A stretch of DNA of 41,915 bases from Candidatus Andersenbacteria bacterium RIFCSPHIGHO2_02_FULL_46_16 (GTDB lineage Bacteria > Patescibacteriota > Andersenbacteria > UBA10190): the NCBI GenBank assembly GCA_001817065.1, contig MHHQ01000012.1, positions 1 to 41,915 on the forward strand, in the 5' to 3' direction. A program made the position numbers and the translations under genes. The stretch's first letter is position 1, and every line of letters begins with the position of its first letter. A model generated the notes under the pieces. The model made no database searches and was not told where the DNA came from. It was given only the letters and a program-made list of their open reading frames with translations. This document shows positions 9,753 to 38,802 of this stretch, in pieces.

Positions 9753-11129
9753 TTGGTTGATTTTATTAATATAAGTAATTTTATTGATATTATGTTCAAT
9801 GCAAGTATTTACCGGTCGTATGATATTAGGGGCATAGTGCCAACAGAGTTGGATAAAGAAGAGTGTTATCATATTGGCCGAGCATATGCCAAATTTACCG
9901 GGGCAAAGAGGGTAGTGGTGGCACGCGACATGAGACCGAGCGGTGATGAGTTCGAGCCGGAGTTGGTAAGGGGATTGACTGAGGGCGGAGTGAATGTGAT
10001 TAGGATTGGTTTAGCGACATCGCCAATGTTTTATTTCGCGGTGCATTTTTTTGGCGCTGATGGAGGGGTGATGGTAACGGCCTCGCATAATCCGGGTCAA
10101 TATAATGGGTTGAAAATGACGAGGGCAGAGGCGGTACCTATTGCCGGAGATTCGGGTTTAATGGATATACGTGATTTAGCGGAGAAGCGAGACTGGGAAG
10201 CAGTTACGCAGGCAGGCAAGACAGAAGATAAACAAATTAAAGATGAATACGTACAGATGGTAACAGCAGGTTTTTCGGCGGAGGGTTTGAAGATAGTGGT
10301 GGATGCAGGCAACGGAATGTCTGGATATATATTAAAAGACGTGTTTGAGAGATTAGGTGGCGAAGTGGTGCCTTTGTATTGGGAGTTGGACGGATCTTTC
10401 CCTAACCACGAAGCGGATCCCCTAAAGGAAGAAAATTTGGAGGACCTTAAAAAGGTTATGAAGCAGGAAAAGGCTGATTTAGGTGTGGCGTTTGACGGGG
10501 ATGCTGACCGGGTATTTTTCGTGACTGATCAGGGGGAGACAGTTCCGGGGGATATAACAACGGCTATCATTGCTAAAGAAGTATTGGCGAAGCATAAAGG
10601 GGCACCGGTGCTGTATGATATTCGAGCTTCCTGGACTACCCCCGATGTCATTAAAGAGGCGGGCGGCGAGCCTGTAATGTGGAAGGTGGGACATTCGTTG
10701 ATTAAAGCCAAGATGAGAGAGGTGGGGGCTAAGTTTGCTGGTGAGGTGTCGGGACATTTTTTCTTTACTCCCTGGTTCGCAGAGTCGGGGATGCTGGCGA
10801 TGGGGCATGTTTTAACGGTTGTTAGGCGAGAAGGCAAGTCTTTGTCTGAGATTGTTAAGCCACTACTGAGATACGTGAAGACACCGGAAATAAATTATGA
10901 TGTGCCAGATAAAGAGGCGGCGATTGCTCGGATAAAAAATCAGTATAGCGATGCATCCAGAATATTTGATTTTGATGGAATTCGTTTTGAGTACGAGGAT
11001 TGGTGGGCAAGTGTGCGGCCAAGCAATACGGAGCCAAAGTTGCGTTTAAATATGGAGGCTAAGACGAGCGAGCTACTGGAGAAGAAGAAGGCAGAGATTG
11101 AAGGATTGATAAAGGGAGATGGGAAATAG
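9753..11129 (+). CDS. Phosphomannomutase / phosphoglucomutase (ManB-type)
   Basis: Interconverts mannose or glucose 1- and 6-phosphates, feeding nucleotide-sugar synthesis. All four alpha-D-phosphohexomutase signatures are present: the N-terminal 'SIYRSYDIRGIVP', the phosphoserine loop 'VTASHNPGQYNGLK' (S111), the Mg-binding 'FDGDADRVFF', the sugar-binding 'GEVSGHFFF', and the phosphate-binding 'RPSNTEPKLRL'. The TTG start at 9753 has a strong AAGGAG (9741-9746) at 6-nt spacing, which gives an N-terminal extension of about 13 residues before the usual family start. The alternative ATG 9792 fits the family better but has no Shine-Dalgarno. It begins 25 bp after the DsbD-like gene. The isomerase at 16782 would supply its fructose-6-phosphate-derived substrate. 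Confidence 0.93.
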   Translation: MVDFINISNFIDIMFNASIYRSYDIRGIVPTELDKEECYHIGRAYAKFTGAKRVVVARDMRPSGDEFEPELVRGLTEGGVNVIRIGLATSPMFYFAVHFFGADGGVMVTASHNPGQYNGLKMTRAEAVPIAGDSGLMDIRDLAEKRDWEAVTQAGKTEDKQIKDEYVQMVTAGFSAEGLKIVVDAGNGMSGYILKDVFERLGGEVVPLYWELDGSFPNHEADPLKEENLEDLKKVMKQEKADLGVAFDGDADRVFFVTDQGETVPGDITTAIIAKEVLAKHKGAPVLYDIRASWTTPDVIKEAGGEPVMWKVGHSLIKAKMREVGAKFAGEVSGHFFFTPWFAESGMLAMGHVLTVVRREGKSLSEIVKPLLRYVKTPEINYDVPDKEAAIARIKNQYSDASRIFDFDGIRFEYEDWWASVRPSNTEPKLRLNMEAKTSELLEKKKAEIEGLIKGDGK

Positions 11130-11226: not shown

Positions 11227-11315
11227 AAAAAAAGAGAGCCTAGGAGAGAAAGAGAGTAAAAAGAGGAAGGGAGAGTAAGGCTCTAAGAGAAAGAACGAAT
11301 TGTAAGGGAACTGAT
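11227..11315 (-). ncRNA. Predicted small RNA, copy 1 (CU-rich loop)
   Basis: Predicted transcript of about 89 nt running from near 11315 down to the T tract at 11233-11227. It has a 5' single-stranded part of about 30 nt. Then comes a stem AGAGCCT (minus strand, 11284-11278) / AGGCTCT (11241-11235) closing a loop of 36 nt that is almost all C and U. Seven U follow the stem, so the hairpin also serves as terminator. The loop holds CUCCC, CCUC and CUCUCC motifs complementary to AGGAG/GGAGG. No open reading frame with a ribosome site is visible in it. I recognise no known RNA family (not tmRNA, SRP RNA, 6S or RNase P). Confidence 0.6.
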
Positions 11316-11321
11316 AATTTA

Positions 11322-11349
11322 ATAATAGCAGCTGCAATAATTATGTCAA
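11322..11349 (-). promoter_or_regulatory. Promoter of small RNA copy 1
   Basis: On the minus strand: perfect TTGACA (11349-11344), a 16-bp spacer and TATTAT (11327-11322). The -35 lies inside an inverted repeat, TGTCAAA-4-TTTGACA. Predicted start near 11315. Confidence 0.7.
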
Positions 11350-11385
11350 ATGATTTTGACAGGATTTAGTGGATAAGTTGTATTA

Positions 11386-11402
11386 GGGCTTATGCTAAGC
11401 CC
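11386..11402. repeat. Copy of the trpS stop-codon hairpin
   Basis: GGGCTTA-TGC-TAAGCCC, identical to the hairpin holding the trpS stop at 11661-11677 but detached from any gene. It is the boundary of duplicated unit 1. Confidence 0.7.
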
Positions 11403-11503
11403 ATTTTAAAATAAGAGAAATCCAATTAGTTTTGATGTAAATGCGGGATTAGCAGGGAAGGGGGAGGTACGATGAGAAAAGGCTCTTGTGGCACTTTTTA
11501 GAT

Positions 11504-11590
11504 AAAAAAAGAGAGCCTAGGAGGAAAGAGAGAGAAATGAGGAAAGGAGAAGGGTAAGGCTCTAAAAGAACGAATTGTAAGGGAACTGAT
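11504..11590 (-). ncRNA. Predicted small RNA, copy 2 (CU-rich loop)
   Basis: Predicted transcript of about 87 nt from near 11590 to the T tract at 11510-11504. It has the same design as copy 1: the same 7-bp stem (11563-11557 with 11518-11512), the same 5' segment, and a 38-nt loop of C and U with UCUCC, CCUC and CCUCC motifs. The loop sequence differs from copy 1 in many positions but keeps the pyrimidine bias, which suggests that the composition is under selection. It lies directly downstream of trpS with its own promoter, so it is not merely the trpS terminator. Confidence 0.6.
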
Positions 11591-11596
11591 AATTTA

Positions 11597-11624
11597 ATAA
11601 TAGCAGCTGCAATGATTATGTCAA
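11597..11624 (-). promoter_or_regulatory. Promoter of small RNA copy 2
   Basis: TTGACA (11624-11619), 16-bp spacer, TATTAT (11602-11597) on the minus strand, the same boxes and spacing as copy 1. It starts 41 bp past the trpS stop. Confidence 0.7.
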
Positions 11625-11660
11625 ACGATTTTGACAGGATTTGGTGGATAAGTTGGATCG

Positions 11661-11684
11661 GGGCTTATGCTAAGCCCATTTTTT
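11661..11684 (+). terminator. Plus-strand terminator embedded in the trpS stop region
   Basis: GGGCTTA (11661-11667) / TAAGCCC (11671-11677) with a 3-nt loop, followed on the plus strand by A and six T (11679-11684). It would stop plus-strand transcripts coming from the phosphohexomutase before they run antisense into trpS, while encoding the last trpS codons on the other strand. Confidence 0.5.
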
Positions 11685-12660
11685 CGTGAACGATTGCCAG
11701 GGTTTTGGTAGCAACTTGAGCAGCTTTGGCTGCCCCGTCGGCTAAAACTTCTTCTAGATGTTTGGTGTCCGGACGGATGGTTTGAAAGCGTTCTTGAATA
11801 GGGGAGAGGTGTTCAATGATGAGGTCAGCTAAGGAGGATTTAAATTCTTGGTATCCGCTGCTGGCAAATTGGTTTTCAATATCCTGAACAGATTGTTCGC
11901 TGAATGCTTGATAGATAGCCAGGAGGTTGGTTACGGCTGGACCGCTATTAGTAAAGGAAAAATTAGGTTCTGTTTCAGTGACTGCCATGGAGATTTTTTT
12001 ACGGATAGCGTCGGCAGTATCGGTCAGGGTGATATATGATTTGGCGGTGTCGTCACTCTTGCTCATCTTTTTGTTTGGATCCGTCAATGACATAATACGG
12101 GCAGTGTTTTTATTAACGAGTGCTTCAGGCAACGTGAAGACAGCATCAAACTTATTGTTGAAGCGCTTGGCGATATCGCGAGTGAGCTCTATGTGTTGGA
12201 TCTGATCCTCGCCAACTGGCACGATGTTTGTTTGATAAAGCAGGATGTCAGCGGCTTGAAGAACAGGGTAGGCAAAAAGTCCAAGAGTAGAACGGTCTTG
12301 ATGGTTAGCGGACTTTTCCTTGAATTGGGTCATCCGGTTTAATTCACCTAGCGGAGTCTGGGTAGCGAGCAGCCAAGCTAACTGAGCGTGGGCTGGGACA
12401 TGCGATTGAACAAAAATAGTGCTTTGGTTGGGATCTAATCCGGCAGCTAAATAGAGGGCGGCTGTGTCTAGCACGGTAGTGGGCAGGGATGCCGGATCGT
12501 AGGGAACAGTGATGGCATGTTCGTCCACAATACAGTAGAAAGCAGAATTGTTTTCCTGCAGGGTGATCCATTGCTTGATGGCACCGAGGTAATTGCCGAT
12601 ATGCAAAGTGCCGGATGGCTGTAGACCAGAGAAAACTACTTTGTTTTTGGGGGTTGTCAT
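11665..12660 (-). CDS. trpS: Tryptophanyl-tRNA synthetase
   Basis: Charges tRNA-Trp. The class I signatures are clear: 'PSGTLHIGNYLGA' (HIGH-type, residues 11-23) and 'NKKMSKSDD' (KMSKS). Between them are 'PVGEDQIQHIELTRDIA' and 'YPVLQAADILLY', which are diagnostic for TrpS. With ATG 12660 the protein has 331 residues, the usual bacterial length; an upstream in-frame TTG (12729) would add 23 residues unlike the family. No Shine-Dalgarno is present, but a -10-like TACTCT ends 7 nt before this ATG, consistent with a leaderless message. The last codons and stop lie in the hairpin that is duplicated downstream. Confidence 0.96.
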   Translation of the reverse strand: MTTPKNKVVFSGLQPSGTLHIGNYLGAIKQWITLQENNSAFYCIVDEHAITVPYDPASLPTTVLDTAALYLAAGLDPNQSTIFVQSHVPAHAQLAWLLATQTPLGELNRMTQFKEKSANHQDRSTLGLFAYPVLQAADILLYQTNIVPVGEDQIQHIELTRDIAKRFNNKFDAVFTLPEALVNKNTARIMSLTDPNKKMSKSDDTAKSYITLTDTADAIRKKISMAVTETEPNFSFTNSGPAVTNLLAIYQAFSEQSVQDIENQFASSGYQEFKSSLADLIIEHLSPIQERFQTIRPDTKHLEEVLADGAAKAAQVATKTLAIVHEKMGLA

Positions 12661-12667
12661 GCAGTTA

Positions 12668-12696
12668 AGAGTACGGTTTTTGGTTGTATTGCTCAA
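12668..12696 (-). promoter_or_regulatory. Putative leaderless promoter of trpS
   Basis: TTGAGC (12696-12691), 17-bp spacer, TACTCT (12673-12668) on the minus strand; 7 nt separate the -10 from ATG 12660. The match is moderate and gains weight only from similar arrangements at other genes here. Confidence 0.4.
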
Positions 12697-12746
12697 GCTA
12701 GAAACGAAGCGAGGGAATCCAAAAGTCAAAACCCAAGTAAAACGGA

Positions 12747-12849: not shown

Positions 12850-14775
12850 TTATACTTCTACTATTACAGGCAGAACCATAGGACGGCGCTCGGTTTGCTT
12901 GTACAAGAATTGGCCGATATCGTCACGGATACTTGACTTAAGGTGGGTCCAGTTGGGTTCACCGCCATGGTTTTCACCAGCTTGTTTCTTCACGATTTTA
13001 CTTATTTCCTTTTTAGTGTCGCGGACTAGCTGTTGCTGTTCTTTCATGTAGATAAAACCGCGGGAGATAATGTCTGGTTCGCCTACTACTTCGCCAGAGC
13101 GGCCGTTGATCATGGCGATGATAACTACCATACCGTCAGAGGCGAGTACTTGGCGGTCCCTAAGGACAACGTTGCCAACGTCACCGACACCGAGGCCGTC
13201 AACCATCACAAATTTAATGTCATACTTTTCTCCATTGAGACGGACTTTTTCTGGTGTTACTTCAACTACTTCGCCGTTGCTGGGCAGCATGATATTACCG
13301 CGGTTCATACCGTTGGCAACTGCCAGTTTGGCGTGTTCAGCTCGGTGGGAGAAGTACCCGTGGGCCGGAACAAGATATTTGGGCTGCATTAGATGGATCA
13401 TATGCATCAAATCATCCCGGTGACCGTGTCCGCCAGAGTGAATATCCATCATTTTGTAGTGGAAGACTTCAGCACCTTGCTTATAGATTTGATCTTTTAC
13501 TATCTGTACGGACGCTTCATTGCCAGGGATAACGGATGAGGAGAAGATCACTATGTCGCCCGCTTGCAACTCTAAGGATCGATGTTCCTTGTTAACGATA
13601 CGCATTAATACGGCATTGTCTTCGCCTTGAGCACCGGTGCAGAGGATGAGGACTTTGTTGGGCGGCAGTTTATTGCTTTCTTCTGGCGTGATAATTGTTT
13701 CTTTACTGACTTTCATGAAGCCGATTTCACGGGCGATTTCTACGTTAGTCTTCATAGAGTACCCATCAATGGCAACCTTGCGACCATGTTTTTCCGCGAC
13801 AGCGATCAGTTGCTGGAGACGGTCAATCATTGAGGAGAAGGTAGCGGCAATGATGCGTTGTTGAGGATGGTCATCAAAGAGTTTGGAGAGATTGGTTTCG
13901 ACGGTTGATTCAGATATAGAATGGCCTTCTCGTTCAGCCCCTGTTGAATCAGAGTACAAAACAGAGATACCCTTGTTGCCTAATTCCTGGATATGTTTTT
14001 CGTCAGCCGGCTGATCGTTAACTGGCTTGTTATCAAACTTGAAGTCACCGGTGAAGGCGATGGAGCCGGCCGGGGATCGGACAACTACACCGAAGGCATT
14101 GGGGACAGAATGATTAACGTGAAAGGGCTCAATGGTGAACTGGCCTAACTGGAAGGGTTTTGTGGTGTCGATAATTTTGACATTCGGCTTAGCATATTGG
14201 GGGAAATCATCCTGCCGTTTTTGGACCAGGCGCATGGTGAATTCAGAGCCGTAAATGGGCGGATTACCCAGTTTTGGTAATAAGTGGGGGACAGCACCAA
14301 AATGGTCGTAGTGAGCATGAGTGATAATGACCCCTTTAATTTTCTTTTCTTTACCGTATAGCGGGGAAATGTCAGGAATAACATAATCGATACCATACAT
14401 TTGCTCGCCGGGAAACATTAATCCTAAGTCGATAACAACAATGTCATTTTTATATTCAACGGCGGCGGAATTGCGCCCGATTTCCTCAAGGCCACCTAAG
14501 GGGATCAAATACATCCCATCAGGATTGCGCGGTGGCTGTTTGATGTCGGGCAAATTTCGTGAACGAGAAGGCCCGAAGTGAACTGCTTTAGGATTTCGAC
14601 GACCCTGGTGGGGTCGGCGAGGGGAGCGCTGGCGAGGCGGATTATGGCGGACTGGTTTAGGCTTTGATGCTGGTGCCACTTTGTGTGTGCCGTGAGTTTG
14701 GGTTGGGCGCACTGGTGGAGGCGGCGGAACAGGGTTGTTCGACGGACTCTTTGGTGGTGTATTTGGTTGTATCAT
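12850..14775 (-). CDS. rnj: Ribonuclease J (metallo-beta-lactamase/beta-CASP RNase)
   Basis: 5'-3' exonuclease and endonuclease central to mRNA decay and rRNA maturation in bacteria lacking RNase E. It has 641 residues. The metal-binding motif 'THAHYDHFGAVPHLL' (HxHxDH at 153-158) is followed by 'HVNHSVPNAFG', 'IAFTGDFKFD' and 'YSDSTGAEREGHS' (the beta-lactamase D/H ligands). The beta-CASP parts are 'IAATFSSMIDRLQQ' and 'GHGHRDDLMHMI...PAHGYFSHRAEH', and a C-terminal domain follows. The first about 87 residues are a Pro/Arg/Gln/His-rich, apparently disordered, positively charged extension before the catalytic core ('MYLIPLGGLEEIGRN'); it could bind RNA. No Shine-Dalgarno precedes the ATG. The nearest good promoter lies 180 bp upstream, implying a long leader. 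Confidence 0.95.
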   Translation of the reverse strand: MIQPNTPPKSPSNNPVPPPPPVRPTQTHGTHKVAPASKPKPVRHNPPRQRSPRRPHQGRRNPKAVHFGPSRSRNLPDIKQPPRNPDGMYLIPLGGLEEIGRNSAAVEYKNDIVVIDLGLMFPGEQMYGIDYVIPDISPLYGKEKKIKGVIITHAHYDHFGAVPHLLPKLGNPPIYGSEFTMRLVQKRQDDFPQYAKPNVKIIDTTKPFQLGQFTIEPFHVNHSVPNAFGVVVRSPAGSIAFTGDFKFDNKPVNDQPADEKHIQELGNKGISVLYSDSTGAEREGHSISESTVETNLSKLFDDHPQQRIIAATFSSMIDRLQQLIAVAEKHGRKVAIDGYSMKTNVEIAREIGFMKVSKETIITPEESNKLPPNKVLILCTGAQGEDNAVLMRIVNKEHRSLELQAGDIVIFSSSVIPGNEASVQIVKDQIYKQGAEVFHYKMMDIHSGGHGHRDDLMHMIHLMQPKYLVPAHGYFSHRAEHAKLAVANGMNRGNIMLPSNGEVVEVTPEKVRLNGEKYDIKFVMVDGLGVGDVGNVVLRDRQVLASDGMVVIIAMINGRSGEVVGEPDIISRGFIYMKEQQQLVRDTKKEISKIVKKQAGENHGGEPNWTHLKSSIRDDIGQFLYKQTERRPMVLPVIVEV

Positions 14776-15179
14776 TTGATGATTAAAAAATTAGTTTTTT
14801 TGATGACAGGATATAACTAGGCTTCGGTAAACACATAAAGCAATAACGCTTTGTGCACTGTACTGGTCCTTACGTTGTTAGCCCGTCGATCGTAATAAGC
14901 GAGAAATCAGAAATTATGGCGTCTGAGCTTTCGTTTATGGCGATTAATCTATACATAGACTGTAGCAGAATGGCAGAGAATGTCAAATGGGGATAAGTAT
15001 GTTAGTTAATAAATAGCTTATTAGAGCGGTGAATATGGAATTGGCTATAGGCCCAAGAAGATGGTTTAACTGGTAGGGTGGCAGGGATATTTATCGTATA
15101 AAACACAGAGCTTAGGGTACAGCAAGGTTGGCGCGCCATTGGTTAGTGTCAATAGGCTGGTTGCTGGAAGATGATTTAG
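14776..15179 (-). other. Gene-free 404-bp stretch: putative ribonuclease J leader and tRNA-Leu spacer
   Basis: No coding frame is visible on either strand. It contains the promoter at 14959-14986. Downstream of it lie a hairpin-prone AAAGC/GCTTT stretch (about 14838-14855) and an A6/T6 pair just before the ATG of ribonuclease J. It does not match RNase P, tmRNA or SRP RNA by the conserved motifs I know. Confidence 0.4.
14959..14986 (-). promoter_or_regulatory. Putative promoter of ribonuclease J
   Basis: Perfect TTGACA (14986-14981), 16-bp spacer and TACAGT (14964-14959) on the minus strand. Predicted start near 14952 gives a 5' leader of about 177 nt. Confidence 0.5.
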
Positions 15180-38720: not shown

Positions 38721-38802
38721 TATACAGTGTTGAAAAGAGGAAGAAGGGGTGGATCGTGGGAAATCTCGGTGCAACAATTGTAAAATGCTATATCATATAA
38801 AT

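Follow-up and report, generated by a model that had tools for sequence, protein, structure and literature searches.

LhrC1-5 of Listeria monocytogenes resemble the RNAs described below in being encoded by multiple near-identical copies (111-114 nt), in being poor in G and in carrying CU-rich motifs, one of them in the terminator loop, that block Shine-Dalgarno regions with no need for Hfq; lapB is one mRNA repressed without Hfq (PMC4132741). They differ in their two stem-loops, their three short CU motifs and their dependence on LisR (PMC4132741). The streptococcal csRNAs, which depend on CiaR, are likewise multicopy RNAs (51-202 nt) with a regulator-bound promoter, a terminator and an unpaired anti-Shine-Dalgarno stretch, and some of them form the termination stem-loop only; their CiaR site is a TTTAAG direct repeat, and the motif is typically exposed between stems (PMC3091779). 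For the rhizobial SmelA075 and SmelA099, the anti-Shine-Dalgarno motif CCUCCUCCC has been shown in hairpin loops, within RNAs of three or four hairpins whose stems vary around one fixed loop motif (PMC3927594).

The locus analyzed here lies in a stretch of 41,915 nt (referred to as the window) from a member of the Patescibacteria. Compared with the functional class of multicopy CU-rich anti-Shine-Dalgarno small RNAs, its units are intergenic and, judged by sequence signals, have their own promoter and intrinsic terminator, occur as three paralogous copies with shared promoter elements, and present a C/U motif, complementary to Shine-Dalgarno sequences, in a loop predicted to be single-stranded. 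In contrast to LhrC, there is one hairpin with one CU loop of 36-38 nt, a palindrome overlies the -35 element, and a sequence relation is lacking (no Rfam match). In contrast to the csRNAs, the terminator loop contains the motif, and an inverted repeat is part of the promoter: two TTTAAG repeats are absent there, and TTATCCAC and TGTCAAA-N4-TTTGACA occupy the place. With respect to SmelA075 and SmelA099, the loop is single and long, its order is somewhat variable and the stem is invariant. Most likely, the present RNA would work like LhrC and the csRNAs, by analogy, while belonging to neither family and not being homologous to them. The earlier note on this DNA had mentioned small RNAs with C-rich loops that block ribosome sites in Firmicutes.

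Two tandem units and an unlinked third copy

The elements that the earlier note had described, namely TTGACA, a 16-bp spacer, TATTAT and then about 87-89 nt with a 7-bp stem, a loop of 36 or 38 nt and T7 at their end, were all found where it had placed them. Both units are on the minus strand and extend, including the palindrome, from 11504 to 11636 (copy A) and from 11227 to 11361 (copy B). Upstream of copy A lies trpS, which encodes a tryptophanyl-tRNA synthetase-type protein (11665..12729, minus; Pfam tRNA-synt_1b, E 1.2e-75), and downstream of copy B a convergent phosphoglucomutase/phosphomannomutase gene (9753..11129, plus; four PGM_PMM domains). The promoter of copy A (11597..11624, minus), TTGACA-16-TATTAT with an extended -10 (TGC), agrees with the consensus at 11 of 12 positions, and copy B has the same arrangement (11322..11349, minus). 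With the start set 7 nt past the -10 and the end at T7, transcripts of about 87 nt (copy A, 11504..11590, minus) and about 89 nt (copy B, 11227..11315, minus) are predicted, neither of which contains ATG, GTG or TTG; no open reading frame is shared by the units on either strand. The hairpin of copy A (11512..11563, minus) consists of AGAGCCT, a 38-nt CU loop and AGGCTCT, followed by C and T7 (11504-11510), and that of copy B (11235..11284, minus) has the same arms around a 36-nt loop, again followed by C and T7 (11227-11233). Folding of the A and B transcripts yields this terminal hairpin as the sole structure (-8.4 kcal/mol, z about -2.8), and the CU loop is predicted to be unpaired in all three copies.

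The description of the loop as almost only C and U proved accurate, as copy A has 17 C, 19 T, 2 A and no G and copy B 15 C, 19 T, 2 A and no G. CUCCU is found in the loops of all three copies; of the motifs previously listed, CCUCC is restricted to A and C and is absent from B, which reads CUCUCCU; CCUCC or CUCCU is expected by chance in about one third to one half of shuffled loops.

A search of the organism's own genome (1.36 Mb, 32 contigs) revealed copy C on a different contig, where it lies at C25:144480-144610; the matching region (C25:144437-144615) has 81% identity over 182 nt. Its neighbours are a GNAT-like gene on one side and a membrane-protein gene on the other, both named from reading of their translations. 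Copy C possesses the promoter with TACTAT as its -10; its stem is identical, its loop (37 nt) is free of G and its tail is T-rich. No credible fourth match was obtained in this genome with a covariance model built from the three copies. Directly 3' of copy C lies an element of about 73 nt beginning with GTGATCCCGCCC (C25 ~144607-144679), which is repeated about 680 bp upstream (C25:143930-144002), so that copy C is flanked by the two, which are 86% identical to each other.

The rarity of the motifs was evaluated on both strands of 402,395 bp from this genome. Hairpins with a 7-bp stem having at least 3 G-C pairs, a loop of 25-49 nt of which at least 85% is pyrimidine, and a T-rich tail were exactly copies A, B and C. 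The combination of TTGACA and TGnTAnnnT at 16-18 bp spacing occurs at 4 sites in these 402 kb, 3 of which are the RNA units; the remaining site (14959-14986, minus, in the window) is upstream of an RNase J gene (12850-14775). The earlier proposal of tandem small-RNA genes is supported by promoter, terminator and the lack of a start codon, and by an unlinked third copy that retains these elements at 81% identity. From their sequences, a three-member dispersed family of paralogous, probably transcribed non-coding RNA genes is very probably real.

Upstream signals and differences between the copies

Over the -35 element of each unit lies an operator-like palindrome, TGTCAAA-N4-TTTGACA (copy A, 11619..11636; copy B, 11344..11361), of which the genome has 3 perfect sites, one per unit; this would suggest a regulator. 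A site with one mismatch is located at C5:37750-37767, upstream of a KsgA/RsmA-like gene, and has TTATCCACA nearby, the order being that of the RNA units, so that a shared regulator is possible. In all three copies the palindrome is preceded, 7 bp upstream, by a TTATCCAC box (copy A, 11644..11651, minus; copy B, 11369..11376, minus), which corresponds to a DnaA box minus one base. Farther upstream is the hairpin GGGCTTAGCATAAGCCC, which in copy A (11661..11677) is formed by the last trpS codons and the stop and is a terminator when read on the plus strand; in copy B (11386..11402) it now lies outside any gene, 19/19 identical including the ATG, and that of copy C is at ~1503-1519 of stretch L003 of contig C25. 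This hairpin is invariant in 3/3 copies, yet only in copy A does it end trpS.

Copies A and B are direct repeats 275-279 bp apart, with a 118-nt upstream block that is 95% identical. When the copies were compared block by block, the upstream hairpin ATGGGCTTAGCATAAGCCC was identical at 19/19 positions in every pair, the palindrome at 17-18/18, the -10 region at 15-16/16 and both stem arms at 7/7, whereas identity of the 5' leader fell to 10/17 between A and C; promoter and hairpin are thus kept more strongly than the leader. As the stem never varies between copies, there is no covariation support. Loops are 84-89% identical, with small indels and C/T and A/T changes but never a G, and CTCCTAGGCTCT at the loop-stem junction is invariant. 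When only A and B are considered, the leader shows no difference and the loop has changed more than any other part, so that the earlier view of a loop that changes while promoter and stem stay is correct for this pair, but the loop is not freely variable.

The trpS gene beside copy A ends in MGLA-stop, and TrpS of relatives ends likewise in MGL or MGLA; therefore this end is native, and a fragment of trpS is present in copies B and C. B and C have in common TAAGCCCTAA, CTCTTAGAGCC, the TTTTTACTCTC loop variant and a short flank stretch. Copy A, beside trpS, is the apparent original, from which copy B would have arisen by tandem duplication that took the trpS end along, and copy C by later dispersal of a B-type copy; as far as the sequences indicate, this appears to be the simplest order of events.

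Searches for relatives

The earlier note had made conservation of promoter, stem and C/U loop in related genomes a test of its proposal, and this conservation was found at neither the family, the class nor the sampled-phylum level. A DNA search of 96 relatives gave only chance matches of 20-27 nt; the one from the same order sits inside a CRP-like gene. No comparable unit was detected downstream of trpS in 23 relatives, and neither 12 genomes of the same class nor a sample of 379 others from the phylum gave a match with the covariance model. Exact promoter and stem patterns had no match in genome_contigs, pattern scans of viral contigs revealed no homologue, and plasmids gave no match; two stem-pattern matches in IMG/VR lie inside coding sequence, have purines in the loop and were attributed to chance. 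In Rfam, no family reached its gathering score, and permissive matches (E about 1 or worse) were unrelated. A generic search for a pyrimidine tract plus T-run in 380 genomes was uninformative, as many matches were obtained and likewise with a reversed-pattern control; the best look-alike (genome G086) proved to be a purine-rich leader belonging to a gene on the opposite strand. A genus-level family may still exist, because the genomes searched include no other species of its genus, and conservation among the paralogues within the genome partly replaces the absent conservation in relatives.

Pairing with translation starts and other possible roles

The 16S rRNA of this genome ends in GGATCACCTCCTTTCT, with the canonical CCTCCT. 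The matching 16S rRNA gene region (C2:12909-15345) is 2437 nt long against a 1533-position model, corresponding to about 0.9 kb of inserted sequence; insertions in 16S rRNA genes are common in Patescibacteria. Together with the small size of the genome, this excess length supports the assignment to that phylum. No match to Hfq (PF17209) was detected in the genome, which is 98.5% complete, and the same search was positive in 5 control genomes.

The loops were paired with the region from -40 to +20 of 348 long open frames and with gene interiors. Mean values for starts and interiors were -12.0 versus -9.5 kcal/mol for copy A, -10.9 versus -8.8 for B and -11.6 versus -9.3 for C, a difference that is inflated by the choice of starts partly according to Shine-Dalgarno score. 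Composition-shuffled loops, however, give the same values at start regions as the genuine ones; the anti-Shine-Dalgarno capacity is therefore real but follows from composition, and no specific target stands out. Within the window, the best predicted pairing involves the start regions of the genes at 38749, 6509 and 9753. A recognizable AGGAG or GGAG site is found in a minority of window genes only, and many are without a clear Shine-Dalgarno site. Of what had been proposed before, the complementary motifs are present in the loops; an anti-Shine-Dalgarno role is plausible in view of the CCTCCT end and the better pairing at starts, but target prediction yields no ordering-specific signal over shuffled loops.

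The best explanation, which has about an even chance of being right, is a trans-acting small RNA independent of Hfq whose CU loop is directed at Shine-Dalgarno regions. Each copy would be transcribed from its own strong sigma-70-type promoter, with a regulator protein probably bound at the palindrome over the -35. The terminal hairpin would serve as terminator and at the same time as carrier of the 36-38 nt single-stranded CU loop, and the RNA of about 85-89 nt would act in trans without Hfq, the accessible loop pairing with purine-rich Shine-Dalgarno regions and lowering translation initiation of at least one mRNA. A loop of 36-38 nt is long for an intrinsic terminator, which counts against this explanation, as do the equal pairing of shuffled loops, the stems that never vary, the lack of a relative in the other genomes searched and the many window genes without a clear Shine-Dalgarno site.

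It is unlikely, though by no means negligible, that the RNA is a protein decoy in which the CU loop titrates a pyrimidine-binding protein (e.g., Rho, ribosomal protein S1 or a cold-shock or KH protein) instead of pairing with mRNA. Single strands rich in C and poor in G are suitable for Rho and S1, and all three loops lack G and tolerate small indels and C/T and A/T changes; composition is kept while order is seemingly not critical, in line with the equal mRNA pairing predicted for shuffled loops. However, in known sponge RNAs the motif recurs many times, whereas each RNA has only one short CU tract, and the invariant CTCCTAGGCTCT hints that some order matters.

Distinctly less probable is a composition-based, non-specific damper of translation, in which the G-free loop, similar to the 16S 3' end, would bind purine-rich Shine-Dalgarno regions generally under a regulator at the -35 palindrome. 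If true, this tiny-genome, Hfq-less bacterium would have a global brake on initiation and not a target-specific switch.

Equally doubtful is the view that the units are a mere termination device between the convergent trpS and phosphoglucomutase genes, with an accidental promoter match and with B and C as duplication debris. Their position between these genes fits, GGGCTTATGCTAAGCCC-ATTTTTT is a terminator read on the plus strand, no other T-tailed hairpin is listed on the minus strand from trpS to copy A, and the read-through RNA folds well (z -3.1). Against this, a near-perfect extended -10 promoter, very rare in the genome, is present in 3 copies; copy C is away from trpS, yet promoter, stem and loop are kept at 81% identity; and debris would not change chiefly in leader and flanks.

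Still less credible is a small module, selfish or duplicating passively, that has hairpin-to-hairpin ends, spreads with its own promoter and has no cellular role. All copies share the sharp left end ATGGGCTTAGC, and copy C lies in a gene-poor stretch beside another repeated element. There are, however, three copies only, no shared terminal inverted repeats were seen, and the left end is native trpS sequence, so that the module did not come from elsewhere.

Least likely of all is a longer structured RNA (~185 nt) from an upstream start, in which the GGGCUUA, UGUCAAA and CU-loop hairpins are all RNA elements and not DNA signals: the three palindromes fold together in the read-through RNA and their paired bases are invariant across copies, but no pair varies to give covariation, a rare strong promoter stands exactly in between, and the copies have different sequences upstream of the GGGCTTA hairpin, which leaves no shared promoter there.

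The CU-loop RNA gene family itself is likely real, and its function we infer; that it acts on translation starts is the likeliest reading, on an evenly balanced judgement. Patescibacteria have small genomes, and no description of trans-acting small RNAs from this group was found in the open-access literature, which is weak evidence of absence. With its three copies, rare strong promoter, candidate operator and G-free loop, the family provides a concrete, testable candidate, and CU-loop translational control, if true, would reach beyond Firmicutes and Alphaproteobacteria.
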